From Clonostachys chloroleuca (lineage: Eukaryota > Ascomycota > Sordariomycetes > Hypocreales > Bionectriaceae), in assembly GCA_037952775.1 (NCBI GenBank), contig JBANAY010000003.1, forward strand, positions 9,858,001 to 9,922,000: a DNA stretch of 64,000 nt, written 5' to 3'. This document shows positions 25,085-56,281 of the stretch, one piece after another. The stretch's first letter is position 1. Every line of letters starts with the position of its first letter. The notes below the pieces were generated by a model that made no database searches, had not been told where the DNA came from, and worked only from the letters and a program-made list of their open reading frames with translations. The position numbers and the translations under genes are program-made.

Positions 25085-27039
25085 ATGCCAGTATGCTGGA
25101 AGGACACGTCACTCCCTTCCGTGCCTCGTTCCAAAGGCTGCCTCACCTGCGTTGCCCGAAAGTCTCGTTGTGGTAGGTCTTCTTCTTTTACCATTTTGTA
25201 CCTTTGGCAGCTGATTTCTAGTGTGAAGATGGCCGAAGACCTACTTGCCAAGCTTGCGAAGGCCGTAAACAAGTTTGCAGAGGATACCGCAGGGACAACT
25301 TTGTGTTCCTGAATGACGGATGGCGAGCTCCTGGCGTATCCAAGGCGGGACGCAATAAGCCCTCAAAGCCCAGGGGCAAATCGCCTGCCTATGTCAACCG
25401 AGGACAAATAAATGGCTCGGGAAATCGGGCTCTTCCTGAGCCCGGTCCCTGTATCATGGCGGCATCCCCTCCTCTATACCGGAGGCCGTCAATTGACAGA
25501 ATCCAGCTCAGCGCAGCCTTCTTCATGACCGAGTTTGCAACGAAGTTTATCACAACTCCACATTTCATGGCCAGTCTATTCCGCATATACTTCTCTGTTG
25601 ATTCTTATGCAACTATCAATGCTGGTGCGAGTGCATCCCTCAGGACGCCAGCAGTATTGGCTGTCAATGCTCTTGCTCAAGGGCATTTCGGCCGAGCTAT
25701 GGGCGACGCAGCATCTGTTCGGCAAAGTTTCCATATATACGGCCTCGCCTTGAAATCAATGACATCGTCCATCTCGGCTTTAGGGTTCAGCAGTCTCACC
25801 CTTGATGGCGTATGCGAGGAGAATTGGCAACATTTTGCATTCTTCTGCGTTGTCATGGCTTTTTGGGAAGTATGCATTCTACCCATTGATGCCCAAATGA
25901 GAAATTTCCGTCGTTAAATATCTTGTTTAGCTCAAGATGTGCCCTCTATCTACAAACTGGCAAAGCCATATCCGCGCTCTATCTGACGCCATTGCTCTGA
26001 GAGGGGAAGATCACCCGTACTCGAAAACCAATAAGCAACTCATAGCCGCTTCGCGGTTAATGATTGTGAGTTGTAATATTAATTTATCTGTCTTGTAAGC
26101 TCGTAAAACACTAACAAATCATAACTATAGTCATTGCAAACACTCTCTTCTAGGCAATTGAGTAGTCTGACACCCTACGAATGGCGAAAGAGGGCTACCA
26201 TCCGTTCTGCCTGGCTTACTGAGGCGAAAACGACGATATACACCAGCGAGGATCTGATTCCATCCTGGGGAACCGAGATCTATACCTTTCTAGATTCTTT
26301 GATGGATTCTCTCCCAACGTTGGCGAGCCTGATAAGTCGATATGACCAGCTTGTCGTCCAACTTCTCCAGACTGGCAGGGCGAGCCACAGTGAGCCTAGT
26401 CGAGCTTTATTAGAGCTTTATCATGAAGCGGAAACCCTGTTGAGCCAAACACAATTATCAGCTACGGTATGGCAAACAAAGGTCTATGAGGTTCCAATCA
26501 CCGAGTGCCAATCGAACCCAAACGCCGACCAAGAGGAGGCAAAGGATCATTCGAGGTTCTGGCACATGTTTGAACAGGACTTGCACTCCTTATTTGACAC
26601 CCTCCTTCACTTCCACTCAATGCACGAATATCAAGCCTTCACTCTGTACTGGACCGTTGTCATATCATTACACCTGCAGCTTACGGATATGCTCTCGATG
26701 ATGATGGCCACCAACTCACAACTCATACCAACCGATCCCGGAAAGGAGATTCATAATCACCGCGCCCAACTCGTCGGGTATGCGGAGAATGTGCTTCGGG
26801 CCATTGCCTTCGCAGAGAACGTCGCTAACCGAAGACTTGCGCCCTTTTTCATCACCACCGCTTTCCAGATGACGACCGTCGTTCTGGAAAAGGAGTGTGA
26901 GGTCCTGCGAGGGGAACACGGGAATCTGGAGATCATCCGCCGGTATGAAGCGATGAAGGCTCTGGCGTGGCGATACATGAAATGGGGCTTGCAAAGTAAG
27001 ATTCCGATCAAACTAGACACCACAGGCCGTCTATCTTGA
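25085..27039 (+). CDS. Zn2Cys6 transcription factor (fungal_trans_2 type)
   Basis: Exons 25085-25172, 25229-25869, 25931-26065 and 26131-27039 give 590 residues. The zinc cluster is complete across intron 1: C19, C22, C29, C36, C39, C46 (CLTC, SRC, TCQAC, QVC). The remainder is a long helical region that looks like the fungal_trans_2 (PF11951) group: FFMTEFATKFI, ASLRTPAVLAVNALAQGHFG, a W-E-LKMCPLSTNWQSHI segment, and a C-terminal ALAWRYMKWGLQ. The first intron sits two bases past the third cluster Cys, as is common in the family. Divergent pairing with the DHA2 pump makes it a candidate regulator of that pump; this is inference. No catalytic gene adjoins it on the right. Confidence 0.88.
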
Positions 27040-28318
27040 ACACCACACAAATTGCCAGTGCGGTGGTCTCACAATTATCACGCGATAGTCAGGGAAGAGG
27101 TTTTGCAACGCTTACATTCAAATTTGTCATCGATTCCGAGGCACTGTGCCTTGACAATTCGAAGGAAATTACCTTGATCATTTCTCTGATCAACCAGGCG
27201 CCAAGTCATTTGAAACCGCACTCACGTCAGGCGAGTTTGGGCTTCTTGCAAAAGGACCAGGACAGAAATACCTCTGAAAACGGACGAGGTGGTGCATAGG
27301 CCACAGGGCTGAGCAGCGGCACATGAGGCAAGGCGGCTTGGAAATGGGTGTCCAGGAACGGGGCAGGAAACATCCAGCGACTGATTGAGTGGTGCTCTGG
27401 ATCCAATTGATTAATGTGTTGCGCCGGCTAAGACTTCAGTGTTGCTTCTCAAACAAGGGATCAGGCGCATACCCTCATCAGGCCCCCGCCTCTGTTCAAC
27501 CAGCCATAACATGGATGGTCTCAATTTCACATTATTCATCACGCTATTTATCAGATCAAGCTACTCGCGAGTTGTGTCCCTCAATGGATGAGGAGTGACA
27601 GAGCATGTGGTCAGACCCACGTTGCATTGGCCCAGCCACTTGTTTCATGCTGGTCTAGAGCCGCGCCAGCTGGAACAACCACGGCACATTTAATCATTGG
27701 AAAATACAGCATGCCCCAAATTCGTCTGCCTACTGGTCTTTTTCTAGCGATCACGGAAGCAAACGCCTTACAAGGCCTTTTTGGGGGGTTAGGGGACCAC
27801 TTCTAAGCCTTATCTACCGGCACCGTCTTTCTTTGGCCCCCACAGCCATACCCACGTGTACAGGGTCAATGGGCAGTAAACGGCACTGGCTACCACGTTG
27901 ATCTCTTTAGTAATTCCTCTGAGTGAATCCTTTGATGGGTCTGGGGAAAATGACATGCTGTTTTCAGCGGCCGTGGTTTCCACAGAACTGCCGGCAACAT
28001 CGTCCTTCCTGGAACGGACTGGTCCCTGTCACGACTTTCTGCTTTGAGACGAAGCTCCTTAACGAGGGATTTTGGGTTGAATATCATGCTCTCAGCCAAG
28101 GCTGTGCCTCCAACAATAAATGTCACTTCTTTGGGATGGCCACTTCGTCAGTAACTCAAACTCGGCAACTATAAGACGAGTCCTAGACCCCCGTATTTCT
28201 CCCAACTTCCAGACTGTCAGAACCAGAGCCAAGGACTTAGTAGTTTCATCAACCGCATATCCCTTGTTAAGACTTCATCTCATTTCTGGAAAGCGCGAAG
28301 CAACTCAGCCAACTCAAC
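27040..28318. other. Intergenic region upstream of the NLP gene
   Basis: About 1.3 kb. It holds the 3' UTR of the regulator and the NLP promoter. A TATA-like CTATAAGAC lies near 28169-28177, roughly 145 bp before the NLP start. Small ORFs here have no recognisable product. Confidence 0.45.
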
Positions 28319-29146
28319 ATGCATTCCTCTCTTGTCGCTATCCTTGGTGCCTTGGCCATCGTCCAAGCGCAGCCCACCCACAACGCCAAACGTGACATCA
28401 TCGCAGCTCTCCCTGGAAGTGCCGATGCCACTGAGACTAAGTTCCAGCCGCTGCTAGACTTTGACTCTGACGGCTGCTACAATACGGCTGCTATTTCCCC
28501 TGATGGTACAACCAACCCTGGAAAGGGTGCGACTGGTACTCCCCAGGGCGGGTGCCGGGACCCTCCTCAGCTCCAGAACAGCAATGCCTATTCTCGAAAG
28601 CGCTGCAACAACGGATATTGCGCCATCATGTACGAGTACTTCTTTGAGAAGGACCAGGCTATTGGAGGAAGTTTCCTAGGTGGACACAAATTCGACTGGG
28701 AGAACATTGTAAGCTTTCCTCTTTTCTCAGACGTCGTTTTTTTTTCAAGTTACCATCACTAACTCTGCGCATAGGTGGTCTTTGCCAAGGGCGATCAGGT
28801 CGTTCGCGTCGCGCCCTCATGCCATGGAAAGTACGAGAACGCCAGAAACGACGTCCCACTGTCCGGAAGCCGGGTACAGGCTGTGTATCACAAGGATGGT
28901 GCTGCAACTCACTGCTTCCGTTTCGCCAACAGCGATGACATTGCCCACCCTGAGAACCCCTTTGGTTCTTTCTATACCAGCCCTCTGGTTGGCTGGAATA
29001 ACTGGCCTAGCACTGACCTTCGCAACAAGATGCTCTCGACGTGGAATGGTGGGGTTGGCCCCAAGTTGGATGATGAGTTCACCGATTCGCTCAGAGCTGC
29101 TGCTGGAAGTGGTGTACCAGGTTTCGACCCTGCTCTTGACGCTTAG
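28319..29146 (+). CDS. Secreted NLP (necrosis- and ethylene-inducing protein-like, NPP1 family)
   Basis: NLPs are secreted proteins of plant-associated microbes; cytotoxic members permeabilise eudicot plasma membranes by binding GIPC sphingolipids, and many others are non-cytotoxic. Exons 28319-28708 and 28775-29146 give 253 residues. Seen: a signal peptide ending near residue 17-18 (hydrophobic core LVAILGALAIV), a possible Kex2-type KR at 24-25, six Cys in the mature part, the immunogenic AIMYEY segment, and the family heptapeptide at residues 122-128 as GHKFDWE rather than the canonical GHRHDWE. The first His, Asp and Glu that serve as metal ligands in the type-1 family are kept; the second His is Phe. 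The Cys number fits a type II or III rather than type I NLP. It lies 73 bp from the edge of the transposon nest. Toxicity cannot be predicted from sequence. Confidence 0.92.
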
Positions 29147-29224: not shown

Positions 29225-30211
29225 TATCAGTGGTCACCTGACAGGTCACATATACCCGCAGGAGGGCTTATTATTTAATACTGGTTCAGATTATAAGCTT
29301 CCCTTTCGAAGATTAGGAATTAATAAATCTATTAATAGCAATCTAAGTACTCCTCTCAGATAACCCTTAGTTATATCTTTTGAAAGGTCAAGGTCTCCAG
29401 TATAGGGTAGACCAGCTGTAGGGTAAGCTGGGTCTAGGGTAGATAAAGCCTATAGGGTAGGCTCCGAAATACTAGAGAAGGATCGTTTGAAAAGGCGTAG
29501 TAGAAGGTGCGGGCTCTATAAGAGAAAATAAAGCTCTATCAGCTACAGGGTAGCTAAGAAAGATAGACTGTAGGGTAGATAAAAGAGTGTATTGGTGACT
29601 TATAGAATCTCTATCTAGCAGGGAGGAAGCCCTGTACTTATAGGTGTTTCCAGGCCGTAAGGGCCCTGAAGATAACACGTTGCCTTCTGTAATACGGGCT
29701 CGTAACCGCTATAAGGTTCTCGTACAGAGGGATACGAGACCGCTAATGCAGATGCTACAGCGGATACGAAGTCCGCTAATACAGCTGCTATAGTGGTTAC
29801 GAGGTTCACTAAACTAAGTGCTAAGGTTCTCGTACGGCGGATACGAGGTCCGCTAATGCAAGCGCTGCAGCGGACACGAAGTCCGCTAATGCAGCTGCTT
29901 CAGTGCAATACGGGATCGCTAGCACGGACGCCACAGCGGCCGTTACAGCGGTTGTGACCGCTAACGCAATTGCCCCAACGGGCAGCCACAGTGGGTTGGG
30001 CCAGTGGCTTCAGAGGGCTCCCAGCTTTAGAGAGCCCTAAGTTAGTTATTTCATTCCCCCTTACCCTATACTAATTATATATTATTTGATCAATTAATAT
30101 AGGGTAATCTTGATCTACCCTATAGTCTATAGGGTAAATCTCAACAATATCTATAGCTATCTATCAGGCTTTACCTTAATACTCTTCTTATAATACTACC
30201 TAGTACTAATA
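29225..30211 (+). repeat. Left (5') LTR of element O, split by element A
   Basis: The LTR occupies 29225-29378 and 30153-30211. Element A plus its 6-bp target duplication (774 bp in all) accounts exactly for the excess over the 213-bp right LTR. The part up to about 29284 is unmutated relative to the right LTR; from 29312 inward it carries RIP-type transitions. Confidence 0.85.
29379..30146 (-). mobile_element. Element A, copy 1 (768 bp, solo LTR or non-autonomous element)
   Basis: An insertion in the O LTR with 6-bp target duplication ATATCT (29373-29378 and 30147-30152). On the minus strand it begins TGTTGAG and ends CCTTTCAAA. It is GC-richer than its surroundings and built partly from palindromic AGCGG..CCGCT modules spaced roughly 40-50 bp apart. 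It contains no protein-like frame; a 64-codon GTG-started ORF is a by-product of the modules. Copy 2 is at 35794-36528 in opposite orientation. Terminal TGTTGA resembles the Copia LTRs in this block, so it may be a solo LTR of a related family, but the far end is not CA. Confidence 0.75.
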
Positions 30212-32149
30212 TATTAATTCCTCTTCTTATTCAGGGTTAAAAACTATTAAGAGAATATACTATAGATCTAACTACTAATTATCTATATACCCCTAGTGAA
30301 TTAATAGATAATCTATATATATTAACTTTACTAATAAAAGAATAAGAAGAAGAAGTCTAATAGTTTATAAGAGAGCTTTAAGACTTATAAAATAGTATAA
30401 TACTTAATAAGCTCTAAGATTATATTTAGTAAGTAAGAGAAGTATAGCTATAAATTATTACTAAACTCTAAGAAGTAACTATCTACTAATAATAGAATCT
30501 TATTAAGCTTATTAATTAATCTACTCTAATTAACTTATTTATTTAATCTGAATTAATAGCTAGGAATACTAATTTATAGGAGGAAAGTAATAGTATCTAT
30601 TTACTTCTATAGGAGGTTTATAGCCTAAGGGAGAAAGTTTAAAGAATAGAAAAGAATACCCCTAGAAAAAAGTAATTTAGAACTATTTATAAGAATAATA
30701 ATAAGCCTATAAAGAGATATAAGTAAACTAAAGAAGATCTATAGACTAAGATCTAGATAATAGCTCTTATATATTATAGTAAGAGCTAGATAGAGCTTTA
30801 GATCTATCTAGTATATTTTTAAATAGTTTTCCTTTAAGAGAATTTTAATACTAATATTTAAAAAGTAATATATATTAGTATTTACTTATAAAATATAATA
30901 GAAGTATAATAATAATACTATTTATAGAAGTATCCTATTACTACTATTTTCTAGAAAATATATTAAAAGTAGCTAGAGAAGGGAATTAATAATAGCTTTA
31001 TATATATAATTAAAACTATATAGAAACTACTATATATAAAGCTTATAGTAGATTAGAAATTCAGATTATATATTAATTATTATAAATCTATATTTAGTAA
31101 AATATTAGAGAAGCTCCTTAAGATATTCTAAGTAGCTCTTTTCCTAGAAATCTTATTTATTAACTTCTATAAGTAGATACTAAGTAAAGGGGTACCTAGT
31201 AATTAAAAGAAGTTTTTTAATTAAAGAGTTATTATAAAAATACTTATAAAAACCTCTAAAATTAGTAGTATAATTTAATTTTACTTTTATTTAAGATATT
31301 ATAATATAATTACTTTATAAAAGATTTATCTAACTATAAATATAAGAATACTATAGAGAAAGAGTTTAGATAGAGCTAACTATAGGTAGAAATATTAGAA
31401 ATATAATAAACTAGATTATATAAGAGATTATTATAAAGTCTCTAATTATATAGAGTATTAAAATAATTAATATATAATTAAAATATATACTAAATAAGTT
31501 AGAGACTTTAAACTAGATACTATTCTATATATCTATAAAATATAATAGAATAGGATAAGCTATATTAACTTAAAAATAAGAAAAGTAGTATAATTTAGAT
31601 AAAAGGGATATTAGGAAAAGATAATTATACTATTTAATCTATAAGTAGATATTAATATTCTTTTAAGCTAGTTTATAAGAAAAAGAGCTAAATTACTATC
31701 TAGAATAACTCTAGGGATTATATTTAATAGATAATATATTAAGACCTTAGGGATAAAGCTTTATTTAATAGAAATTATAGATAACTAGGGAGTTATAAAG
31801 TAGATACTCTTTAAGTTTATAATAGTAGATATTAAGAAGAATATAATTATTAGAAAACCCTAGTTTATTAATATTAATTCTTAAATATTTTAAATATTTA
31901 ATAAATAGTATTACTCTCTAGAGTAAGCCTCTATTAAGCTAGTTACTTAACTTAAATAATTTAAATAGATAATTAAGAATATATATATTATAATAATCTT
32001 AATAAATCCCCTAAGTAATACTTCTATATTTAATAGATATAAGGAGAATATAAAATAGCTATCTAATAAATATATAGACTTTATAGATATTTTCTTAGAA
32101 AAGAAAGCAGCCTAATAACTATTCTTAGGAGGATAAATATATATAATTA
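30212..32149 (+). pseudogene. Element O gag-protease remnant (RIPped)
   Basis: AT-rich plus-strand sequence with many TAA/TAG stops. Near 31380-31440 a frame keeps the spacing of a CCHC zinc knuckle in which Cys and His codons have become Tyr, Ile or Arg by C-to-T or G-to-A changes. The last 100 bp read DFIDIFLEKKAA, the usual gypsy linker ahead of reverse transcriptase. The frame stops at the Copia LTR at 32150 and continues in the inverted segment, at 35419 and downward. Confidence 0.6.
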
Positions 32150-33058
32150 TGTTGAATTGAGAGAATATAGCCACTATAAGTTAGTGACCATATTGCTATA
32201 AGTTAGCGGTTGCAACCACTAACCTCTAGCGGTCGCAACCACTAACTGTTAGCGATCGTAGCTACTGACTGTTAGCGATCGCGGCCACTAACTGTTAGCG
32301 ATCGCTATCCCCTGTAACAGCTAGCCAATAGCGATTGAGACCGCTATCCGATAGCGACTACGATCACTAGCCAATAGCGGTTGCAGCCACTGTGGGTCAG
32401 TGGCTACAGGCCGCTATGACCGCTACGGCTTAGCGGGCTCCAGTTCCTCTTTAGGGCTAGGAGCGTCCAGCGTTATTTATAGGTTATTAGGCTATATTAG
32501 CCTAAATAAGGGTCTAGAAAATTCAGGAAAAAATCTGAGCAACTTCTAGTAGCCTAACCTATACCCAAGCTACCCTATAACCAACCTACCCTAGACTAGA
32601 TCTTAGATCTTAGGATATCTCCTTCAGCTTTAAAGATAAGATATCTAATATCTATACTTAACTAATCAGCTTAACTAGCTCTTTCAGATAAAAGTGGGTC
32701 TTAAAAAGGTTATATATATCTATCTTATAGTTTGGTAGTTATAAGTTGATTTTTTAGATTTCCTATAGTAATAAATTTTACAGAAAATCAAAAGTAGCCC
32801 GGGAAGCTGCTATAGCGGGTTTTAGAGTAGTTTTTAGTCGGTAGACCTATAAGAGAAATTGGTATATTTTTCCGGTTCCTCTCACCAAAATAAGATTCTT
32901 TTGCGCTATAAAATATACTATAAACTAACTTTCTAGTATGAAATTTGACTAAGTTATAGAGGAGTGTTCACTATAAGTTAGAAGCTAAATTTTCTGCTGC
33001 TGCTAGTTATAGCGGTCTCAAGGCCTAATGCACCTTGTAGGCCACTGTAATTTCAACA
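32150..33058 (+). repeat. Copia solo LTR, copy B (909 bp)
   Basis: Begins TGTTGAATTGAGAG and ends TTTCAACA, matching the LTRs of the intact Copia element (48624-56281) read on the minus strand, with an extra palindromic module making it longer than 864 bp. Its left flank is AATTA (32145-32149) and its right flank AGTAT (33059-33063); these do not match each other but match the flanks of copy B' crosswise. Confidence 0.88.
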
Positions 33059-35424
33059 AGTATTATAGTTCTTAGTTTATTCTCTTAGTTTAACTATCTA
33101 TTTAAGAGTAAAATATAGTATTAAAGTATCTCTAGTATATAAGTAAATAATAGAAAGATTATTAGTAATCTTCTATAAAGACTATTATTCTATCTAAAAC
33201 TATTCTATTTAGAATTCTATATAGTATAAAGACTTTATTAATTAGAACTTCTATTAATATTTTACTACTAAGTACCTTATAGGTTATAATAAATAATAAG
33301 TACTTTATAAATTAGTTTATAATAATAAGTATTATATTATATAGTTTACTTCCTAGTTCTAATATAAGTAGAAGATCTATAATAAAATCTATTAATACTT
33401 TTAACTATAGATATATTATTTATAGAAGTAGTACTAGAAACCTATAGAGCTTATACTTTTTTATATTAATATATTAGTAAATTAGATATAATTTTATATA
33501 GTATTTAATATCTCTCTTTATACCTAGTTAAAAGTAAAATTTAATTATTTTTTATATTATTCTATTTACTCTCTAGTAATCTACTATAGATATATTATAA
33601 TATAGTAAGAGAAGTTTAATTTTTATATCTAATAGTATAAATATATATTTTTTAATATTTTTTTCCCCCTAGTAGTATAGTAACTTTTTATTATTAACTA
33701 GTTACTTATAAGATTTATATCTATTAGTAGTATTAAAAGTACTCTTAGCTTTTACTCTCTTTTTTATTATAAAGATATTCCTTTATTATACTTCTAAAAG
33801 TATTTTAATTAGGGTTTTTTCTTCTACTTATAATATTATAATTATATTTTAATAATCTCCCTACTAATTCTTAATAGTTCTTTAAGTTATAAGCTAAAAG
33901 TAGATAAGTATTTTACTAGTAACTCTCTCTCTCCTAGTAAGTAGAATTTTTATAATTAGATATAATCTAGTTAATCTATAAGTATACTAATTAAGATCTA
34001 ATAACTTATTAGATATTCTAATCTATAAATCTCCCTTAAATATATTATCTATTCTTTTCTTATATAAAAAATACTAGAGGAAAATATCTAGATAACTCCT
34101 TTATACTTTCTCTTTTATTTAGGGATCTATTAAATTAGACTTTCTTAAAAGCCTATTTACTAGGTTTAATTTATCTAATCTATATTTAATTATAAAGTTA
34201 TATAGAGCTAGCTTATCTAGTACTATTATCTATTTAGCTAATAGTATTTTTTTATCTACTAGATAGCTATAATTTAAATAGTTTATAATAACTATAACTA
34301 GATTAGCTATATATACTAAGTAGTACTTCTATATATAGAAAGCCTTTATTATTATAAGTATCTCTATATTAGGAATAGAATATTTAAGTTAAGATCTATT
34401 TAGCTTCTTTAAGAGATATATAACTAGATACTATTTACTTTATATAAGCTATATAAGTACTACTCCTATTATAAAATCTAATATATTAGTTTTAATTCTT
34501 ATATATACCTCTAGGTTAAAGTATATTAAAATTAGCTAGTTTATAAATCTATTCTTTAGCTCTTAGAAAGCTATTTATTTAATATTATTAAGTAATAGAT
34601 ATTCTTTATATTTATCTTATATTAGATTAGTTAATAGTATTATAATTTTACTATAGTTTTTTATAAAATACTTATAAAATTCTATAAAATCTAGGAAGAT
34701 CTATATATTCTTTATATTATAAAGTTCTAGCTAGTTTTATACTACTTAGATATATTCCTCCTCTATTTATATTCCTTTAGACCCTATAATAAACCTAAAG
34801 AAGAATACCTTATTAACTATAAATTTATATTTTTATAGATTAGTATATAGATCTATATTCTATAGCTTCTATAGAATAGTCTTTATATATTATATATATA
34901 AGATAATATTATTATTATAGATTAGAATATTATCTAGATAGATAATATAAATAGAGTCTATCTTAAACTATAATATATTATTAATATACTCTTAGAAGAT
35001 TACTAATATATTAATTAGACTAAAGGGTATAATAAAATATTTAAAGTAACTATATCTATATCTAAATACTATTTTCTACTTATCTCTCTTATTAATATAT
35101 AGTCTTTAATATATATCTTTTATATCTAGTTTTATAAAGATCTTAGTACTATATAGCTAGTTAAGAATCTTATAGATTAGGAGTAATATAATATAGTTCT
35201 TATATATTATCTTATTTAAACTATAATAGTTAATATAGAGTTATAGCTTAGAAGAACTTTTCTTAGATATAAATAGTATAGGGGTACCTACTAAGCTAGT
35301 TAATCTCCTTATTTATTTATTCTTAAGGGCCTTTTTAATATATAACTTAAAAACCTCTAGCTTTCTAGTTACTAAAGAATAAATAGATTCCTATAGTAGT
35401 ACTTAGCTATTTTTTAGTTTAATT
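33059..35424 (-). pseudogene. Element O reverse transcriptase to integrase segment, inverted
   Basis: RIPped Ty3/gypsy pol, now on the minus strand. From 35424 downward the frame reads LEVFKLYIKKALKN, then GTPILFISKK, KIFIKLDIKDIY, IVFRYRYSYFKYFIIPFSL and IYLDNILIY (the catalytic YLDD as YLDN), and ends with the integrase tail TKRINQEL next to 33059. Many stops replace Gln and Trp codons. Flanked by Copia LTRs B and B' in opposite orientation. Flipping the segment restores the gag-pol frame at both junctions. Confidence 0.8.
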
Positions 35425-37073
35425 TATTAAAATTACAGTAGCCTACAAGGTGCATTAGGCCTTGAGACCGCTATAACTAGCAGCAGCGGAAAATTTAGCT
35501 TCTAACTTATAGTGAATACTCCTCTATAACTTAGTTAAATTTTATACTAGAAAGTTAGTTTATAGTATATTTTATAGTACAAAAGAATTTTATTTTGGTA
35601 AGATAAACCGGAAAAATATACTAATTTCTCTTATAGGTCTACCGACTAAAAACTACTCTAAAACCCGCTATAGCAGCTTCCCGGGCTACTTTTGATTTTC
35701 TATAAAATTTATTACTATAGGAAATCTAAAAAATCAACTTATAACTACCAAACTATAAGACAGATATATATAACCTTTTTAAGACCCACTTTTTATTAAG
35801 ATTTACCCTATAGACTATAGGGTAGATCAAGATTACCCTATATTAATTGATTAAATAATATATAATTAGTATAGGGTAAGGGGGAATAAAATAACTAACT
35901 TAGGGCTCTCCAAAGCTGGAAGCCCTCTGAAGCCACTGGCTTAACCTACTGTGGCTGCCCGTTGGGGCAATTGCTTTAGCGGTCACAACCGCTGTAACGG
36001 CCGCTGTAGCGTCCGTGCTAGCGATCCCGTATTGCGCTGAAGCAGCTGCATTAGCGGACTTCGGATCCGCTATACGAGAACCTTAGCACTTAGTTTAGTG
36101 AACCTCGTAACCACTATAGCAGCTGCATTAGCGGACTTCATATCCGCTGTAGCATCTGCATTAGCGGTCTCGTATCCCTCTGTACGAGAACCTTATAGCG
36201 GTTATAAGCCTGTATTACAGAAGGTAACATATTATCTTCAGGGCCCTTACGGCCTGGAAATACCTATAAGTACAGGGCTTCCTCCCTACTAGATAGAGAT
36301 TCTATAAGTTACTAATATACTCTTTTATCTACCCTACAGTCTATCTTTCTTAGCTACCCTGTAGCTGATAGAGCTTTATTTTCTCTTATAGAGCCTGTAC
36401 CTTCTACTATATCTTTTCAAATGATCCTTCTCTAGTATTTCGGAGCCTACCCTATAGGCTTTATCTACCCCAGACCCAGCTTACCCTACAACTGGTCTAC
36501 CCTATACTAGAGACCTTGACCTTTCAAAACTTTTATCTGAAAGAGCTAGTTAAGCTGATCAGTTAAGTATAGATATTAGATATCTTATCTTTAAAGCTGA
36601 AGGAGATATCTAAGATCTAAGATCTAGTCTAGGGTAGGTTGGTTATAGGGTAGCTTGGGTATAGGTTAGGCTACTAGAAGTTGCTCAGATTTTTTCCTGA
36701 ATTTTCTAGACCCTTATTTAGGCTAATATAGCCTAATAACCTATAAATAACGCTGGACGCTCCTAGCCCTAAAGAGGAACTGGAGCCCGCTAAGCCGTAG
36801 CGGTCATAGCGGCCTGTAGCCACTGACCCACAGTGGCTGCAACCGCTATTGGCTAGTGATCGTAGTCGCTATCGGATAGCGGTCTCAATCGCTATTGGCT
36901 AGCTGTTACAGGGGATAGCGATCGCTAACAGTTAGTGGCCGCGATCGCTAACAGTCAGTAGCTACGATCGCTAACAGTTAGTGGTTGCGACCGCTAGAGG
37001 TTAGTGGTTGCAACCGCTAACTTATAGCGATATAGTCACTAACTTATAGTGGCTATAGTCTCTCAATTCAACA
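35425..37073 (-). repeat. Copia solo LTR, copy B' (about 908 bp, split by element A copy 2)
   Basis: LTR parts at 35425-35793 and 36529/36535-37073, same family as B but in opposite orientation. RIP-type changes are seen at its start (TATTAAAATTACAG for TGTTGAAATTACAG). Left flank TAATT (35420-35424), right flank ATACT (37074-37078). Confidence 0.88.
35794..36528 (+). mobile_element. Element A, copy 2 (735 bp)
   Basis: Inserted in LTR B' with 6-bp target duplication ACTTTT (35788-35793 and 36529-36534). On the plus strand it runs from TATTAAG (TGTTGAG with RIP changes) to CCTTTCAAA. It is the reverse complement of copy 1 with small indels and scattered transitions, and keeps the palindromic modules. 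Confidence 0.75.
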
Positions 37074-37100
37074 ATACTACTTAAAAGTATTTTATACTAA

Positions 37101-38744
37101 TGTTACGAACAAAGCATATGCCTACCGTATCACGTGGTATACCCTACTTTTCTCACTAATAAGAGATAGATCACTCTGGATCATCAGTAAGCCTGAATAA
37201 TCCTCAGCTAAACTTACTCTGGATTACCAGTAAGCTATTGTAAGCCCCTAGTATATATATATATTTATTTTACTAGATAGAATACTCTCTTAGATAGTTA
37301 TTAATAATATTATCTATATATCTATTGCTACTAGCTCTATAATATTTATATATTAATAGTAATTTATATTATATAGCTTAAGATAACCTAATTATACTAC
37401 TTAGAATAATACTCTAATTAGTTTAACCCTAACCTACCCTAGACCCTGTTTAGTATAAGTTAACTAACTATTATATATTAATAACTCTTATTTAGCTAAT
37501 TATCTTATCTTAATTACTATATAATAATAAAGAAGATATTATAACTACTATAGTATCTTAAGCTTAGTAATAGTATACTCCTACTGCTAATAATAATCTA
37601 TCTACTCTAACTATTAAGGATAATACTATAGATAAGGATAGTAATAATAGTAGTAAGGATAATAATAATAATTATACTAAGGAGATATAGCTCTTATAAG
37701 ACTAAGTTAACTAGCTTAATATATACTTTATAGATACTTACTAGGAGTTAGCTAATATAATAAACTTTATAGTATAGTAAGCTGCTATAAATATTAACCT
37801 CTATACTTAAGCTATAACTATAGTTCAGAGAAAAGAGCTAGAGTAACTATTTAAACTACTACTATCTGAGATATTTAATAGAACCTAAGATAAACTCTAG
37901 AGATTTATAACTTAACTCTAAGTATACTTTAACTACTTTCCTATTATACTTAATACTAGTAAAAGGAAGATTATATATACTTACTTATAACTTAAGGGAG
38001 TTATACTTAACTAGTTTAAATCTATTATAAGGGAATATCTTAGTAGATAAAGAAGCTAATAAATTATTAATATTATAATAAGTTTTAATTACTTTATAGA
38101 AGTTCTTAAGTAAACCTTTAGTATTTAAAATAAAAAGTATAAGATAGAATATAAGATTAATATACTTACTTAGAAAGGATTATATTTAACCTTTAGTACT
38201 TAATACCTCTAGCTATTAGTTAAGACTAGATAGAATAAGGAATATATTATATTTTACTATTTTAACTAACTTAAAAAGAAAGTTTAAAAAGAACTATATA
38301 AAGAAGATAGGCTAAAAAGTATTTATAAATATATAACTATAGCTATAAGAATTAATAACTAGTAATATTATTAGTAAACTTATAATAGGAAGATAACCTA
38401 TTTTACTAATACTGGAAAACTATAATAGTAGTATATTATAGCCTCTGGGATATATATAGGACCTATAGAGCTAGAAGCTATAGAGAAATATAAATACTAT
38501 AACTATAATAAGGTTAGATATATTTTACCCTAATATCTAGAACCTAAGAAAAATAAGAAGAAAGATTAGAGACCTGCTAAGGATAGTAAGAAGTAATTAG
38601 GAGTAATTAGGAAAACTAATACTAAAGTTTTAGGAATAATATATAAGATTAACTAAGGAGAAACTCCTATAACTATTATAATCCCTAAGTATCCTCTAAA
38701 AGATATATCTATTTTTTAAGAAGTACTAGAACCTGAGGAATATA
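37101..38744 (+). mobile_element. Chromodomain gypsy G1, 5' part (LTR and gag)
   Basis: LTR 37101-37475, beginning TGTTACGAACAAAGC, followed by a RIPped gag region resembling G2. It is interrupted at 38744 by the complete element G2 and resumes at 46178. Orientation plus. Confidence 0.75.
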
Positions 38745-39139
38745 TATATTACGAATTTAACTAATATGTACTATCATATATAGACCCCACTTTTTCTCTC
38801 TAATTATACCTGGATCATCCGGATCTCATAATAATCCTTATGATCCTCAACTCAGGATCATTGCCAAGCCTCAATAATCCCCTAGTATATATATATATTT
38901 ATTTCACCAGATAGAACACCCTTTCAGACAGTTATTAATAATATCATCTATATATCTATTATTACTAGCTCTATAATACTTATATATTAACAGTAACTCG
39001 TATTGCACAGCCTAAGATAACCTGATCGTACCACTCAGAATAACACTCTGATTAGTTCAACCCCGACCTACCCTAGACCCTCCGTCCAGTATAAGTCATC
39101 CAACCGTTATATATTAATAACTCTTATTCAGCTGATTAC

Positions 39140-42100
39140 CTTATCTCAATCGCTGTGTAATAACGAAGAAGATATTATAGCTGCTGTAGTACCCCAAGCT
39201 CAGCAATAGTATACTCCTGCTGCTAATAACAACCTACCTGCTCCAACTGTCAAGGATAATACTATAGACGAGGACAGTAATAACAGCAGCGATAATAACA
39301 ACTATACTGAAGATATACAGCTCTTATGAGACCAAGTTAACCAGCTCAATATACACCTTGCGGACACTCGCTAAGAGTTAGCTAATACAACAGCCCTTAT
39401 AGTACAATAAGCCGCTATATATACTAACCTCCAGGCTCAAGCTGTAACTGCTGTTCAGGGAAGAGAGCCAGGATAACTGCTTAAGCTATTACTACCTGAG
39501 ATATTTAATAGAATATAAGACTAACTCCAAGGATTTATAACTCAACTTTAAGTATACTTTAATTACTTTCCTATTATCCTCAGAACAGAAGAAAGGAAGG
39601 TTATATACACCTACTTATAACTTAAGGGAGGTATACTTAATTAGTTCGAACCTATTATAAGGAGATACCTCAGCAGGCAAGGAGACCAACGAACTATTAA
39701 TATTATAATAAGTTTTAACTACTTTGTAGAAGTCCTTTAATAAACCTTTGGAATTCAAGATAAGAAATATAAGGCGGAATATAATATTAACCTACTCTCT
39801 TAGAAAGAATTATATATAACTTTCAGCACTAGGTACCTCTAGCTCTTAGCTAAGACTAGATAGGACGAGGAACAGGCTATATCTTATTACTTTAACAGGT
39901 TAAAGGAAGAAGTGCAAAAGGAACTCTATAAGGAAGACCGGCTAGTAAGTATTTATGAATATATAACTATAGCTATAAGAATTAATAACTAATAGTACTA
40001 GTAGTGAACTTGTAGTAAGAGAATAAATTACTCTGCTAATACTGGGAAACTATGATAATAGTATACTGTAGTCTCTGGGATATATATAGGTCCTATAGAG
40101 CTAGGAGCTATAGAGAAATATAAATACTACAACTATAATAAGGTTAGATATATTTCACCCTAATATCTAGAACCTAAGAAAGATAAAAAGAAAAATTAGA
40201 AACCTGCTAAGGATAGCAAGAAGTAATTAGGAGTAGTTAGGAAAGCTGATACTAAAGTTTTAGGAATAATATATAAAATCAATTAGGAAGAAACCCCTAT
40301 AACTATTATAATTCCTAAGTATCCTCTAAAAGATATATCTATTTTCTAAGAAGTACTAGAACCTGAGGAATATATAAAACTCAGTATAGCTAGGAAATAA
40401 TAAGAAGAAATCTAGTAGATCTTCTAAGAGCTTAAGGGGAAGTTTGAACAAGGGGAATTAGTTCTAGGATTTAGACTACCTACTAAATATAAATATATAT
40501 TCTGCTATACTAATAGAGTTATTCTATAAAACTCTACTAAGAAAGAATAATATTAGCAGATAAGGATAGAAATTAAAGCTAAATACAGCGAACTCTATAT
40601 ATATTATTAAGAGAGGATATAGGAATAATATCCAGATATATCGGAAGAACTAGTTATTTTTAGAAATAATACTATCAGTACTATACAGCTCGGTAATAGT
40701 ATATATAAGATACTGATCTGTATAAAGATAATATAGATATATAACTACCCTCTAGAATTATAGATAACCTACTATAATAATTAATACTAAGTATATTAAA
40801 TAGAGAAGGCTAAGAATGATTTCTTTCTATACCCTAATAGAAGAATACCTAATAAATATACTGCAGAATAAATATAATAATTTATATACTAATAATAGGG
40901 TATAAAATAATATACTATCTTTAAGGAGGACTTAGAAGAATATCCTGAAGAATATACCTATAGCGAACTACTAGTAGAATTATATACTAAACTAAGGTAT
41001 AAGGTTTATAAGAAGGTTAAAATCGAATTATAGTATAAAAACAAGGACCTCGAAGATTAAGTAATAGCTGAATATAATAGTCAAATTGAATAATACTATA
41101 ACTGGAAGTACAGGAACTACCTGGAAGCTAAAACAATAGTACTAGAACTAGCTAAATATAGCAATAACGATATAAACCCTGCTAAGATATATCTACAGCA
41201 GTATTAGCAGTAGGAAGAAGAAATAAGATAATACTGCGAATAAGGTATACTATCCCTAACGGATAGTGAAGAAAGTAGTAATATAGAGGAGTAAGAAATT
41301 ACCTCTACTAATAAAAAAGAATAGGATAAAGCCTACTCTGATAATAGGATACCTATAATAATTAGCGAATTAAACAACTGGAGGAGGAAATATGAATAAT
41401 TTATCCCTAGTTCTGCAGATAAACTAAGAACCCTTATAGATATCCTAAAATAGGTACCTAAGAATAAAGAAGAGTAAGAATAGCTTGAATAATAAGTTAA
41501 CCAGGTAAAAAATAATATAAACTATTTATAATGGGGCTATAGTACGGTAAAATAATATTAAATCAGAAGACCCTAGGAGCTATAGAGGGAGGAAGCTTAA
41601 TTAATATTATTATAGATATTAAGATCGAGGGATACCAGCTTATAGTATAGATAGACTATAGAGTATTATATAACTATATCTTACTAGTAGTAATTAACTA
41701 ACTCCGCTTACTATAAAGAATAAAGAAGAAGTCCTATAATATTATAACCCCGGATAGAATATTATTCAAGTATAATAACAGAATTATTAACTCTAAGACT
41801 GATTACCTTATAACTAAGATCCAAGGGAAAAAATTTAATATTATATATAACCTAGTACTATTAAATTCCTATAATATTATATTAGGATTACTATAGCTAT
41901 AAGATACAAACCTACTAATAGACTGGTTTACCAGCTGTATAGAGTAGAGGGATACTCTTATAAACCTATATCAGGATTAATAAAAATTGAAATTTTATTA
42001 GATATTAGAAGAATATAATAATTCCTTAATAACTGAAAGTACTACTATAAAAAACTAAAAAAATAACTTGTAATAATAAGTAGATACAGTGGTTACAGCC

Positions 42101-45100: not shown

Positions 45101-45130
45101 TTAAAGAACTACCAGGGGCTTATTTAATAG
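39140..45130 (+). pseudogene. G2 gag-pol with terminal chromodomain (RIPped)
   Basis: Ty3/gypsy polyprotein riddled with TAA/TAG and Cys-to-Tyr style changes. In order: a CCHC zinc knuckle near 40115-40165 whose Cys and His codons are mostly mutated; aspartic protease region near 41620-41720; reverse transcriptase near 42540-43110 with LDLKGAYNLI and the active site reading VYLNNIL instead of YLDD; RNase H near 43370-43700 (YPVVFYLKKLYSTELNYPIY); integrase near 43880-44700 with ILDRGTTFASKF; and a chromodomain near 45050-45130 (NIWEPARYLKNYQGLI). The chromodomain places it among chromoviruses, whose integrase is targeted to marked chromatin. Confidence 0.8.
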
Positions 45131-45164
45131 TATTACCAGGCCCAGAAATACCTATCCTAACGAA

Positions 45165-48618: not shown

Positions 48619-48623
48619 ATACT

Positions 48624-49487
48624 TGTTGAAATTACAGTGGCCTACAAGGTGTATTAGGCCTTGAGACCGCTATAACTAGCAGCAGTGGAAATTTTAGCTT
48701 CTAACTTATAGCGAACACTCCTCTATAACTTAGTCAAACTTCATACTAGAAAGTCGGTTTATAGTGCATTTTATAGCGCAAAAGGATCTTATTTTGGTGA
48801 GAGGAACCGGAAAAATATACCAATTTCTCTCATAGGTCTACCGACTAAAAACTACTCTAAAACCCGCTACAGCAGCTTCCCGGGCCACTTTTGATTTTCC
48901 GCAAAATTCATTACTATAGGAAATCTAAAAAATCGACTCACAACTACCAAACCATAAGATAGATATATATAACCTTTTTAAGACCCACTTTTATCTGAAA
49001 GAGCTAGTTAAGCTGATCAGTTAAGTATAGATATTAGATATCTTATCTTTAAAGCTGAAAGAGATATCTAAGATCTAAGGTCTAGTCTAGGGTAGGTTGG
49101 TTATAGGGTAGCTTGGGTATAGGTTAGGCTACTAGAAGTTACTCAGATTTTTTCCTGAATTTTCTAGACCCTTATTTAGGCTAATATAGCCTAATAACCT
49201 ATAAATAACGCTGCTGACGCTCCTAGCCCTAAAGAGGAACTGGAGCCTGCTAAGCCGTAGCGGTCATAGCGGCCTGTAGCCACTGACCCACAGTGGCTGC
49301 AACCGCTATTGGCTCGTGATCGTAGTCGCTATCGGATAGCGGTCTCAATCGCTATTGGCTAGCTGTTACAGGGGATAGCAATCGCTAACAGTTAGTGGTT
49401 GCGACCGCTAGAGGTTAGTGGTTGTAACCGCTAACTTATAGCGATACGGTCACTAACTTATAGTGGCTATAGTCTCTCAATTCAACA
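48624..49487 (-). repeat. Copia 3' LTR
   Basis: 864 bp, the downstream LTR in the element's own orientation. It carries palindromic TAGCGGT..ACCGCTA modules in the portion corresponding to the start of the LTR (49,240-49,470). Confidence 0.9.
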
Positions 49488-49503
49488 CTCCCTCTAAAAA
49501 GGG
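49488..49503 (-). other. Copia polypurine tract
   Basis: On the minus strand, CCCTTTTTAGAGGGAG directly precedes the TGTTGA of the 3' LTR: the expected site for plus-strand priming. Confidence 0.7.
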
Positions 49504-49745
49504 ATATATAGTGCTTATTTATAGAGATAAAAATCCGAAAAAATATACACTAAATAGCGCATTTTTCAAGGATTATAGCGCACTAAAAGAGTATAGGGTA
49601 AACCTATTATTTGCTATTTTATAAAGGAGTGTTCAGAAGAAAACTCCTAAGAGGCTAGGAAAGCAGTAACTGCAATAAAACCTAACCAATAGAGACTAAT
49701 AGTCTCTATTTAACCCCTATAAAGGTTATTAAGAGAGGGAAGCTT

Positions 49746-52700
49746 CTAGGATAAACCTAGGAGCTTTATATAGCTTTTAAAAGCTATAGAGGCTAGGGGT
49801 TTAGTTAACCCATCAGCCGGCATCTCTTTAGTATTAAGATAGATAACCTTTATATTTTCTAGCTTTATAACTTCCCTTATATAGTTGAACTTTAATAGTG
49901 TATGTTTAGTTCGACTATGAAGATTAGGGTTAGAAGAGTTAGAAATAGAGCCTGTATTATCACAATAGAGGTTTATAGAGGATATAGGGTTTTTTAGTTC
50001 CTTATATAAGGTTTTTAACCATAAAACCTCTCTAATAGCCTCTACTAGAGCATCTGTTTCAGCCTCTGTAGTTGATAGAGCTATAGTTGAAGCTTTCTTA
50101 GACTTCTAACTAATAGGGGTATTTCCTAAGGTTATTAGATAACCAAAGGTTGACTTAGAAGACTTATCTCCAGCAAAATCACTATCACTATAAGCTATAG
50201 GATAGAAATCCTTAGTAGCTTTATAAGTTATAGCTAGTAATTTAGAACCTTTTAGATACTTTAAGGTTCCTTTTGCTTGATTAAGGTGTTCTATATAGGG
50301 ATTACCTAGTTGAGAAGATAACCACTGTATAGGAAACCCTAAGTCAGGTCTAGTCATAAGCATAAGATACATTAAGGTACCTATTATAGCTTGATATAAC
50401 TTAATTTCCTTATAGTTTAGCTTCCTAGATAAAGGTTGCTTTATACTATTAGGTTGTAAGGGAACTAAGTTAGGTTTAGAATCTAGAAGACTAAAAGTTT
50501 CTAAAGCCTCTTCTATATATTGGGACTGAGATAACTTTAAAGTCTTCTTATTTCTATCCCTTATAATTTGAATTCCTAAGAAGAAGGAAGCAGGTCCTTT
50601 ATCTTCTAGCTTATAGGCTTTATTTAGCTGCCTTTTTAGCTTATTTATAGCTATTAAGCTAGGACCAATAATTAAACAGTCATCAACATAGGTTATTATA
50701 TAGATTTTTAAAATCTTATTATAATAGACTGCTGGGTCAGAAATTAGGGGATAAAAGCCTAGGGTTTTAAATAGAGCTCTAAGAGCCTCTTGCCACTCTC
50801 TAGGACTTTGCTTTAAACTATATAAGGCTTTATTTAACTGTATAACCTGTTCTTTATCAGGATTATAACCTAGTTTAGTTATTAACTTAACTAGATAGGG
50901 TCTAGCTTTTAAAAGCTCTATAAAGCCCTCAGGTATAGCCATAAATATAGTTTCTTTTAAGGAGCTATTTAAAAAAGCACCTATAAAGTCAACCTGTTCA
51001 ACTTCTAAGTTAAACTGGTTAGCTATAGCTAGTAAAATTCGCCAAGTTGAAGGAATAGCTGTAGAAGCAAAGATCTCTTTAAAATCTAGGCCTTCTATTT
51101 GCATAAACCCTTTAGCTACTAGCCTAGCTTTAAACTTATAAGGGATATTATTAGAATCCCTTTTAAATTTTAAGACTAACCTATTTAATAGAATTTTTCT
51201 ATCTTTAGGTATACTAGTCTTATTTATAAAGGAAAAGCAATTTTGATATACTAGTTGTTCTAGTTCATCAAATATAGCTTCTAACCACTCTTTCTTATTT
51301 TCTGACTTAATAGCCTGTTTAAAAGAAGAGGGTTCTTTATCTAATATTTTCTTCTTAACTTTATAATTAATATTATAACTATAGTAAAGAAGTTCCTTAG
51401 GATCTAATTCCATAGGATCTTCTAATATAGAATTTTCTTTATTTTCTATATTAGAAGATATAGGAGTATTAGGATTTTCTAGAGAAATCTCTAGGGTAGG
51501 CTCTTCTAAATTTATCCTTTTTTCTCCCTCTAAGACTTCTAGTATTTTAGAATTCTTAGAATTATCTAATTCTTCTATTTCTCCCTCTAAAGGGTTATTT
51601 AGAAGATAGGGGTTTATAAGTTCTTCTGGGTTATTAGAAATTAAGTTATCAACTTCTATTTTCTGAAAACCTTTATCTGAAGAACTAATTCTCTCTAGAA
51701 ACCTAATATAGCTAGTTTTAGTTACTAGCTTTCTTCTAGGTATCCAGATTAGATAAGTATTAGAACCTAATACAGCTAATAGTCTAGCTGGTTCAGTTCT
51801 AATATTAAGCTTATAGGATTTTTCCCTATTTTCTATAGGAATTATAGCTTCACAATAGCTACCTATAGCTTTATAAAAGCCTAAATTAGGCTTATAATTT
51901 TTAGAAGGTTGTAATTCCTTATAGAATAACTCATAGGGTGTAAAGTCTCTATTAGTAATAGCAGTTAAATTAACTAGCTTAACTATAGCTTTTATTATAA
52001 AACACCAGAGATATATAGGAATATTAGCCCATAATATAGAGGCTCTTAACCTATCTAGGACTAGCCTAATAGATCTTTCTATAAGACCATTCTGGCTATG
52101 AGTATAAGGGTTAGAGGTTAAAAAAGCTATCCCTTTTTTAGCTAGCCAATCTCTTAATTCAGAGCTTATCTCAAGGCCTCCATCAAAGTGAAACTTCTTA
52201 GGATACCTATTATAAAGGTTTTTAAATTTTCGAAATAAATTCTGAATAGCTATAGTTATAGTTATAGCTTCTTTATTAGCTAAACTAATAACCCAGCGAT
52301 ATCTAGTTTTTCTATCAACTAGAAAGAGATTATAAGGCTTTTTATTATAGGGTATAGGGTTTATTTTAACTATATCTCCCTCTATTATATCTAGGACTTC
52401 AGAAGGATCTTCTATAGGTCTTCTAGATATAACCCTAACTGCTTTAGCTCTAATATAAGCTAAGCAAATAAAGTCTTTATCTTTAACTAAGGAAAAATTA
52501 GGAATTCCTTTAGTTATGTTAGCTGTTTTCTTAAGTAAAGCTAGCCCTAAGTGGCCTAGTCTTATATGCCAAAGACCAGCTAAGTCTAATAGTTTCTTAT
52601 ATTCTTCTGAACTTAGGCTTATAGCTTTAGTTTTAGAGGAATTAGAAGGAACTAAGATAGAAGGGTTATTAACTAAGAGATCTTGAGATCCACAGGCCTC

Positions 52701-54665
52701 GTCAGAACCCTGAAGACTCTCTATAACAGCTATATCAGCTTTAGAGTCCTCTAGGCTACGCTTATAAGCTCTCTTAGTTTCCTCTTCTAAATCTATAGTT
52801 TTCTCTTCTAGAAACTTATAGTCTTCTAAAGACTCTTCTTCTTCTATAGAAGAAGGGATTTCCTTATAATCTTCCTTATTTAAAGTAGGATTTTTAGGAA
52901 TTCTAACTTCTAAGGGATAATTATAGCTAGTATTTATTTCCCTATTATAGAAATTATAAAAGGATTTTAATAAGGGAGTTTCTATTCCTTTTAAGGTTAA
53001 GAAAAATCCATTTTCCTTTATATTAAATAACCCAAAACAGGCTCTATCTTTAGAATATAGCCTATCTTTTATAAGGGTTCCTCCTGAGATATAGTGTTTT
53101 AAACCACTAATTATAGCAGTATCAAAGGAAGGAATATAGAGGGTTTCTTCTAGATATATATCCTGAAATTTTATAGGATTTCTAGATATAAGAACTGTAT
53201 ATTTAGCAGTTCCTTTTCCTTTTGGATAAACTAAGCCTCCACCTGTTAGAATAGGTTTAGCTTCCTTGGAGTTTAAGGGTTTATAGTCTATAAAAGACTC
53301 CCTTTTATTAGCTATATAAATAGTTGAACCTGTATCATATAATAAGCTAGAGATAGGTTTCTCTATAACTTTTTTCAGCTTTTTATAACTCTTAGGTCTA
53401 GAGGTCTTATAAGTCTCTAAGGATAAGTCTTCTTCTTCTGAAGAAGATTCTGAGGAAGTAGATATATAATCTTCTTCTAAGTTATAGCTTCTAGTTAGAA
53501 AGCTAATAGATTTTTTATTAGAATCTTCTTCTTTATTAGAATTAGATTCTCTTTTATTCTTATTCTTATTAGAATTAGAATTAAATCCTTTTTTATTCTT
53601 CTTATAATTAGAAGAGTTATTTTTAGGATCTTTAGGCTTAGAATTAGCTAGTTTTTTATTAGCTTCTTCTCTAGCTTTATTAACCTTATAATTTATTCCT
53701 TTAGCTACAGAAGAGCTTTTATCTCTCTGTTCCTCTAAGAGGTCTGCTATAAGAAACTGAAGGTTTAAAGATTCTAGGTTATTTCCTAAGGCTCTTTGAG
53801 ATCTTATATTAGATCTTTGCCTTTCTGCCCAACTAGGAAAGGTTTCCTTTAAAGACTGAAGATACTGATTAAACTGATCTATAGGTTCAACTTTAACCCC
53901 AGCTAGGGTTAGTCTAGCTAACAGACTAATAAATTCAGAATTATAAGCCTCTAAGGAGCCCTTATAGCTAGAAAACTTAAGAGAGTGAAATTTAGAGTAT
54001 AGATTTCCTCTCTGTATCTCAGAACTTTGAGAATACTGCTTAACTAAGAGATTATAAGCTTCAGAAGGGCTTTTTAACTAAGTTATAGCAGCTTGGGGTC
54101 CTTCTTCACAACTATCTCTTAATAGCATAAGAATTATAGCCTGTTCAGTATCTACTAAGGAATTAGCTATATTAGGTTTATCTATAAATTCTGGTAACCC
54201 AAAAGCTCTGAATTGTATAGTTAAGGCTTATTTCTATTTATCGAAATTAGAGCTATCTTTTAGCCTATAATCTTCTGGAAAACTATATACTCTCTTAGAT
54301 AGTTCTCTAACTATAGAGGTATTTAAGGCAGAGGTTAAGCTAGTAGAAGATTTAGTTTCTAGCTTAAAGGGTTTAATTTCCTCTTTACTATCAACTTCCA
54401 TCTTACTAGCTATTTCTTCTCTTTTAATTTCTTCTTTATCTTTAGAATTAGAAGAGATAACCTGAGTAAGGTTTTGAAGAGCTAGTTGTAAATTCCCTAT
54501 AGAGTCTTTTAGGGTTCTAAACTCTTCAGTCTGAGAAGCTAGTTGAGTTCTTATTTCATCAACTTCTTCTTCTAAAAGTTCTAGATTCTTATTAGAACCT
54601 ACAGGACTAGAAGGAACTTTATAGGAACCCTCTAAGGGTTGTTTACCCTTATTAGACCCACTCAT
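49746..54665 (-). pseudogene. Copia gag-pol polyprotein, single frame with four in-frame stops
   Basis: One reading frame of 1,640 codons from ATG 54665 to TAG 49746-49748. Gag: N-terminal coiled coil (LEEEVDEIRTQLASQ) and a UBN2-like region, then a Ser/Asn/Lys-rich stretch. Protease: YDTGSTIY near 53320-53345. Integrase: zinc finger HIRLGH near 52590 with a degraded second pair (CLAY), then core DGGLEISSELRDW and NGLIERS with the D and E of the DDE triad near 52180 and 52080. Reverse transcriptase: FMQIEGLDFKEIFA and YVDDCLI near 50690. RNase H: SKKASTIALSTTEAET and ADGLTKPL near the end. Stops at 54234-54236 (TAG), 54228-54230 (TAA), 54078-54080 (TAG) and 50106-50108 (TAG, at the Trp of the conserved SWK) each differ by one transition from a Gln or Trp codon. 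So it was recently functional and is probably inactive itself. Confidence 0.88.
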
Positions 54666-55396
54666 TCTAACTCGAATAGGCCTAGTTAGCTAGAGCTTCA
54701 GTGAAGACTTAAATAGCTAGTTAGAAGGTTTAATAAATACTTCTTTTTAGATCTCTTAGAAAGAGGTCTAGGGTAATTGAAGATAGTAGAATAAAATTCT
54801 CCTAAAAATCTAGTTTCCAAATATATTTTTTATAATTTTTTAGAGCTTAAAATAAGCCTTCTAGAAAATAAAGAAGCTAATAGCTTCAAAGTTGATTTCT
54901 TCAGCGCTTATAGCGCTATAGCCTTTAGCGGGCTTAGGGGCTTAGGAGCCTGGAGCTTAGCGGTCAATTGACCTAACGTTCAGTGGGCTAGCAGCCGGCT
55001 TTTTAGCGGTCTGCAGCTGTGCGGCAGGTGCTCTAGCAGTGCTAAGAGCGCTGTAACTCAGTGAGCTTAACAGCCTAACAGGGACTTCTTCAGTGGTTCA
55101 ATAGCCAATTAGAAGGGTTTGTTCAGTGGACCTAGTGATCATGACAGCCAATTATAGGGCCTTGTTCAGCGGATCTAGCGGTCAAGAGGAGCCAATTACA
55201 GCGGGTTACACACTGGGTCTCAGTGGGCTAACAGGGGCCTAAGCAGCCTATAGGAAGGAGCTGCACAGCAGGGGTCTTCAGTGGTCTGACCACTAAGAGA
55301 CAGGTGCACACTGGGGCCTTCAGGGGTCTTCAGCCAGTAAAAATACAGGCTTTATAGCGGATATAAGATGGTTTTAGCGGTTGAAGCGCTATAAGT

Positions 55397-55417
55397 TAGT
55401 GAGCCGGGCTCATAACC
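55397..55417 (-). other. Copia primer-binding site matching tRNA-iMet anticodon arm
   Basis: Immediately inside the 5' LTR the minus strand reads GGTTATGAGCCCGGC. Its complement, GCCGGGCTCATAACC, contains the CAT anticodon in a stem-loop like that of initiator methionine tRNA. Drosophila copia uses the same internal region of tRNA-iMet (a half-tRNA primer). Match to this organism's own tRNA is inferred. Confidence 0.7.
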
Positions 55418-56281
55418 TGTTGAAATTACAGTGGCCTACAAGGTGTATTAGGCCTTGAGACCGCTATAACTAGCAGCAGTGGAAATTTTAGCTTCTAACT
55501 TATAGCGAACACTCCTCTATAACTTAGTCAAACTTCACACTAGAAAGTCGGTTTATAGTGCATTTTATAGCGCAAAAGGATCTTATTTTGGTGAGAGGAA
55601 CCGGAAAAATATACCAATTTCTCTCATAGGTCTACTGACTAAAAACTACTCTAAAACCCGCTACAGCAGCTTCCCGGGCCACTTTTGATTTTCCGCAAAA
55701 TTCATTACTATAGGAAATCTAAAAAATCGACTCACAACTACCAAACCATAAGATAGATATATATAACCTTTTTAAGACCCACTTTTATCTGAAAGAGCTA
55801 GTTAAGCTGATCAGTTAAGTATAGATATTAGATATCTTATCTTTAAAGCTGAAAGAGATATCTAAGATCTAAGGTCTAGTCTAGGGTAGGTTGGTTATAG
55901 GGTAGCTTGGGTATAGGTTAGGCTACTAGAAGTTACTCAGATTTTTTCCTGAATTTTCTAGACCCTTATTTAGGCTAATATAGCCTAATAACCTATAAAT
56001 AACGCTGCTGACGCTCCTAGCCCTAAAGAGGAACTGGAGCCTGCTAAGCCGTAGCGGTCATAGCGGCCTGTAGCCACTGACCCACAGTGGCTGCAACCGC
56101 TATTGGCTCGTGATCGTAGTCGCTATCGGATAGCGGTCTCAATCGCTATTGGCTAGCTGTTACAGGGGATAGCAATCGCTAACAGTTAGTGGTTGCGACC
56201 GCTAGAGGTTAGTGGTTGTAACCGCTAACTTATAGCGATACGGTCACTAACTTATAGTGGCTATAGTCTCTCAATTCAACA
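55418..56281 (-). repeat. Copia 5' LTR
   Basis: 864 bp, nearly identical to 48624-49487. Promoter for the gag-pol transcript. Ends TGTTGA / TCAACA. Confidence 0.9.

Follow-up and report, generated by a model that had tools for sequence, protein, structure and literature searches.

A stretch of 64,000 nucleotides from the fungus Clonostachys chloroleuca (assembly GCA_037952775.1, 59.4 Mb in four contigs), hereafter the window, covers positions 9858001-9922000 of the 37.5 Mb contig JBANAY010000003.1 (C3) and contains an AT-rich island in which a decayed Gypsy-type long terminal repeat (LTR) retrotransposon holds nested insertions. Between about 30 and 60 kb of the window GC content, taken in 2-kb steps, drops from approximately 0.49 to 0.21-0.43, and within the Gypsy-type pieces it is 0.175-0.197, compared with 0.495 at 20001-29000. 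Within this island a segment of the Gypsy-type element, at 33059..35424, is inverted relative to the paralogs of the element elsewhere in the genome, and it lies between two Copia LTRs of opposite orientation. Ectopic recombination between these inverted LTRs, or between the full elements from which they derive, very probably produced this arrangement inside a retrotransposon already made AT-rich by decay resembling repeat-induced point mutation (RIP).

Components of the locus

The Gypsy-type element lies on both sides of the inversion as well as within it. Its left part (30148..32149, plus strand, GC 0.197) terminates in AATTA and has 11 other full-length matches at 84-90% identity. The inverted segment of 2,366 bp (33059..35424) corresponds to the pol region and lies on the minus strand, an orientation established from the paralogs, and the right stub (37079..37100, plus strand) adjoins the end of the segment in those paralogs. 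Following the reading direction of pol, the reverse transcriptase region (34740-35423, minus strand) is followed by the RNase H region (33900-34739, minus strand), which is the order of Gypsy (Metaviridae-type) elements. The domain labels in this segment fared differently in Pfam: RT_RNaseH_2 matched above its cut-off (E = 3.3e-9, 37.1 bits) and RT_RNaseH fell just below (24.5 bits, cut-off 24.8), so that RNase H stands; RVT_1 matched below its cut-off (E = 9.4e-6, 25.9 bits, cut-off 29.6); and the stop-ridden piece at 33060-33899, which the original prediction took for integrase, matched no Pfam family at E values up to 1. The Gypsy-type element has a probable LTR pair at 29225-30207 and 57780-57988, the left member of which is interrupted by the repeat A (29379-30147) and the right member of which shows the uninterrupted form.

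Differences between the window and the paralogs consist almost entirely of C/T and G/A transitions with an AT-rich outcome, as expected of RIP-like decay. Each paralog showed 204-379 transitions versus 0-14 transversions in 19 comparisons of the two large pieces, and six short downstream comparisons contained two transversions each. The strand bias of these changes was also weighed, as an additional third check on the inversion, and set aside, as sites with T in the window and C in the paralog were near balance with sites with A in the window and G in the paralog in most comparisons, for all pieces. The largest imbalances, 39 versus 69 and 86 versus 126, both fell in the segment, and we draw nothing from them.

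LTR B (32150..33058, plus strand) is a solo LTR that fills the left breakpoint, and LTR B' (35425..37073, minus strand), a copy of the same family in opposite orientation, fills the right one. B' is interrupted by A' (35794..36528, minus strand), an LTR-like repeat of a second family whose ends are good to about 1-2 bases and whose own duplication we read as AAAAG. Both LTRs belong to the family of element C (48624..56281, minus strand), a full-length Copia element with LTRs 99.65% identical to each other, to both of which B is 91% identical. When the open frame of C was searched as three pieces, Pfam found Retrotran_gag_2, rve and RVT_2 in the order typical of Copia, each above cut-off; since C bears LTRs of the same family as B together with this domain order, we assign the B family to Copia. 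B has the termini TGTTGA...TCAACA, the 3' end of B' is mutated to TAATA, and the family has the TG...CA ends and 5-bp target duplications of such LTRs.

Exchanged target duplications and unflipped paralogs

The flanks of the two LTRs are crossed. B lies between AATTA (32145..32149) and AGTAT (33059..33063), and B' between TAATT (35420..35424) and ATACT (37074..37078), all given on the plus strand; TAATT is the reverse complement of AATTA, and AGTAT that of ATACT. Thus each LTR has at its inner end the duplication that belongs to the other, as if the inner copies of two target duplications had been exchanged. The LTR ends and the four 5-bp flanks, as originally read, were confirmed on re-reading the window sequence. 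Two 5-mers drawn at random from the AT-rich element agree with p = 0.0076, giving a chance of about 6e-5 for two independent cross matches. Among distinct B-family copies with both ends, the flanks agreed at all five bases in L004, L005, L008, L018, L020, L037 and L052 and at four of five in L007 and L044, and at zero to two in L002, L003, L006, L021, L026, L028 and each single LTR of C, some of these poorly flanked copies being the inner ends of longer elements.

We searched the same genome twice, once with the left piece (30148-32149), for which all 37 candidates were scored, and once with the segment 33059-35424 in reverse complement, for which 40 of 183 were scored. Sixteen places outside the window, paired by hand, hold both pieces close together, and in all 16 these are collinear in the order that results from flipping the segment back. 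The left junction had this order at all 14 places where the left match reaches its last base, and there the two matches overlapped by exactly five bases, which form a single target: AATTA in 13 of the 14 paralogs and AACTA in the remaining one. Of the two further places, one is a diverged copy (70-71% identity, with an 11-base gap in the alignment) and in the other the left match stops at base 1785 and a B-family LTR sits between the parts; both are still collinear. Considering all matches listed except those of the window itself, all 30 left-segment pairs within 5 kb shared a strand, with no opposite-strand pair, so that the order seen in the window occurred at none of the matches listed.

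The right junction gave a similar picture. Among places of at least 80% identity that retain the last bases of the segment, a filter that excluded the diverged copy L022, 10 of 11 run from the segment end straight into the homologue of 37079-37100. A single target was found at each of these 10 places, ATATT in eight and ATACT in two. Both copies of this target in the window read ATACT, the minority state among paralogs (2/10), as copies of one target should. In the 11th place, L025, other sequence sits exactly at the junction and appears by eye to be of the A family; what looks like the end of an A-family LTR lies at about position 1501 of L025, at the same ATATT target that B' used in the window. 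The left flank of C likewise ends CTATAATACT, and a preferred target may explain the sharing of this site.

Only paralogs thus provided the uninverted order, in which each target is single. Because the paralogs show the unflipped order with single targets, the segment was inverted at this locus and both LTR insertions came earlier. On these two points, as on the limits of the inversion, the original prediction agrees with the exchanged duplications and with the many unflipped paralogs. It had also offered the continuity of the Gypsy-type reading frame as an independent test, which we do not retain, as the frames are full of stops and too broken to carry weight, with three readings for each junction piece. 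The evidence from paralogs weighs more than that of the duplications alone, and far more than frame continuity.

These junctions also bear on how the segment was turned. LTR retrotransposons integrate through complementary DNA and integrase, which counts against an aberrant or hybrid insertion in which transposition itself inverted the segment, and such an origin appears extremely unlikely given that two different targets were each precisely duplicated and that the junctions contain neither deletion nor duplication. An alternative of this kind was weighed for DNA transposons in passages of a study on the element Galileo (PMC2775673).

Likeness of the two LTRs and the order of events

If B and B' recombined, traces could be expected in their sequences. 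Compared on the minus strand of B', the two show 99.1% identity in LTR positions 1-546 and 95.9% in 541-907; A' accounts for about 735 bp nested between the two aligned parts. The 5' parts are equal at 535 of 539 aligned bases, with four substitutions and one indel, and the 3' parts at 347 of 363, with 16 substitutions. Among the copies scored (40 of about 192 candidates in each part-wise search), the 5' ~540 bp of B had its best match in B' at 99% (next 97%), and the same part of B' had its best match in B at 99% (next 98%). Both lack the same 2 bp at LTR position 318: the exact 30-base pattern with the deletion occurs in two places, B and B', and the undeleted pattern in 95, counting copies free of other changes inside the pattern. 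Of 17 places that carry a second 5' pattern with at most two mismatches, B and B' alone have it unaltered. The mutual best match of the 5' parts and the shared deletion would fit gene conversion between B and B', which probably accompanied the exchange. The two LTRs at most suggest a breakpoint near LTR position 546-573.

The 3' part of the LTR has the higher density of RIP-type columns (74 of 363 at positions 547-909, compared with 51 of 540 at positions 1-540; ungapped columns in 16 B-family copies). An attempt to map a chimera in the 3' parts from their RIP-type sites was abandoned, as these sites are widely shared among copies and hence uninformative.

A number of observations weigh against recombination between the two LTRs, or weaken the support for it. 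A single 5-mer cross match is not rare in such DNA, as its probability shows, and matching flanks are absent from some B-family copies. Among the copies scored, the 3' part of B was matched better by ten others than by B' and equally well by one, and with the 3' part of B' as query one further copy drew level with B. The proportion of RIP-type sites of B that recur in B' (0.92) is the same for L037. The 3' parts, which have many RIP-type changes and no special closeness, give no information on the chimerism expected of two recombined copies. The variant base of the second 5' pattern recurs in at least three other places, so that this pattern counts for little, and the closeness of the 5' parts could reflect descent of both LTRs from one source element. 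Finally, a flip made during assembly leaves a sequence trace identical to that of a real one.

Such an artefact would mean that the true chromosome has the order of the paralogs and that the segment was misjoined between the inverted LTRs, and a segment between inverted arms that are 99% identical over 0.5 kb is the classic setting for it. We nevertheless regard misassembly as unlikely, since one long read could span the whole structure of 4.9 kb, the arms are distinguished by 20 substitutions, one indel and the nested A', and the locus lies in a contig of 37.5 Mb with no N in the window. Recombination could also continue between these nearly identical inverted arms, which lie 2.4-4 kb from each other; the segment would then still be flipping and both orders would be present among a population of nuclei. 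This seems very unlikely: a single order was seen, and the differences between the arms (four substitutions and one indel in the 5' parts, 16 substitutions in the 3' parts) argue against recent homogenisation of the whole LTR.

Recombination between inverted Copia sequences is the reading that we favour, and the relative order of events may be reconstructed as follows. A Gypsy-type retrotransposon would have inserted and then decayed through RIP-like changes from C to T and from G to A. As the duplications and the paralog junctions show, two Copia elements of the same family inserted into it at the targets AATTA and ATACT, oppositely oriented and with 2.4 kb between them. This probably followed the decay; the Copia sequence is richer in GC (0.394 in B versus 0.185-0.197 in the surrounding sequence). 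Homologous recombination between the inverted Copia sequences would have flipped the intervening 2,366 bp and exchanged the inner copies of both duplications, with a conversion tract over the outer 5' ~540 bp presumably accompanying the exchange, and further changes would have followed. A' would have inserted once B' existed, and C, judging from the identity of its LTRs, would be the latest insertion or nearly so. Because conversion and RIP distort such estimates, absolute dating is unsafe and any dating of B versus B' is relative only. The crossover would lie within B-family sequence, and may have taken place in full-length elements later reduced to solo LTRs. The original prediction of an LTR-LTR recombination holds as regards the inverted B-family substrates, and goes beyond the evidence in placing the crossover in LTRs rather than full elements, as the duplications would look alike in both cases.

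Further repeats lie to the right of the inversion. D-type elements are repeated within 37101-48618, for example at 37108-38746, 38703-40599 and 46711-48618. Element C (48600-56300 with its surroundings) has D-type repeat sequence to its left and Gypsy-type sequence to its right, and its flanks read ATACT (left) and GATACT (right), with one extra G in the duplication. Between the homologues of 37100 and 56282, paralogs carry about 1.04 kb of the Gypsy-type element that is missing at C.

Related systems and significance

Exchanged target duplications at inversions flanked by transposable elements have already been described. Inversion 2z3 of Drosophila buzzatii was made by Galileo copies and, in the passages of the study that deal with it, resembles the present case in having opposite-orientation copies of one element at the breakpoints, exchanged target duplications, single targets in the uninverted order and nested later insertions (PMC2775673). 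Galileo, however, is a DNA transposon with 7-bp duplications, whereas LTRs with 5-bp duplications are involved here, and 2z3 is chromosomal and polymorphic, whereas the segment described here spans 2.4 kb inside a dead element and its uninverted order is known from paralogs only. Moreover, the Galileo copies are chimeric, which served as a third criterion in that study, whereas B and B' yield no information on chimerism in their 3' parts. The same source mentions Ty-mediated rearrangements in yeast (PMC2775673). Copies of an LTR retrotransposon are likewise the substrates of inversion there, and their nesting inside a decayed element, as at this locus, is not known to occur.

Among fungi, gene conversion or ectopic recombination among LTRs is reported for crapaud of Podospora, whose solo or fragment LTR copies have mostly few RIP mutations (PMC10787394). 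The evidence there consists of full copies with two ends from different LTR subfamilies, and the passages on crapaud contain no inversion with exchanged duplications, such as is present at this locus (PMC10787394). Among the titles and openings of abstracts listed in a literature search, there was no fungal inversion with exchanged LTR duplications.

The locus most probably represents a genuine instance, cleanly recorded, of a process already known. A wider reading, to which we give a low probability, is that inverted solo-LTR recombination in RIP-decayed AT-rich islands is an ongoing, conversion-linked activity that keeps LTR halves alike and flips the segments between them; if this were true, RIP would not silence recombination there, and this locus would exemplify it, either frozen or still flipping. 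Independently of that, the window provides a base-exact record of an LTR-mediated inversion in a RIP-like AT-rich island, on which duplications and paralogs agree, and in our judgement such events in RIP-like islands may be expected to be seldom documented at this resolution. The shared 2-bp deletion and the exchanged duplications provide two traces with which to ask whether conversion and crossover coincide between LTRs.
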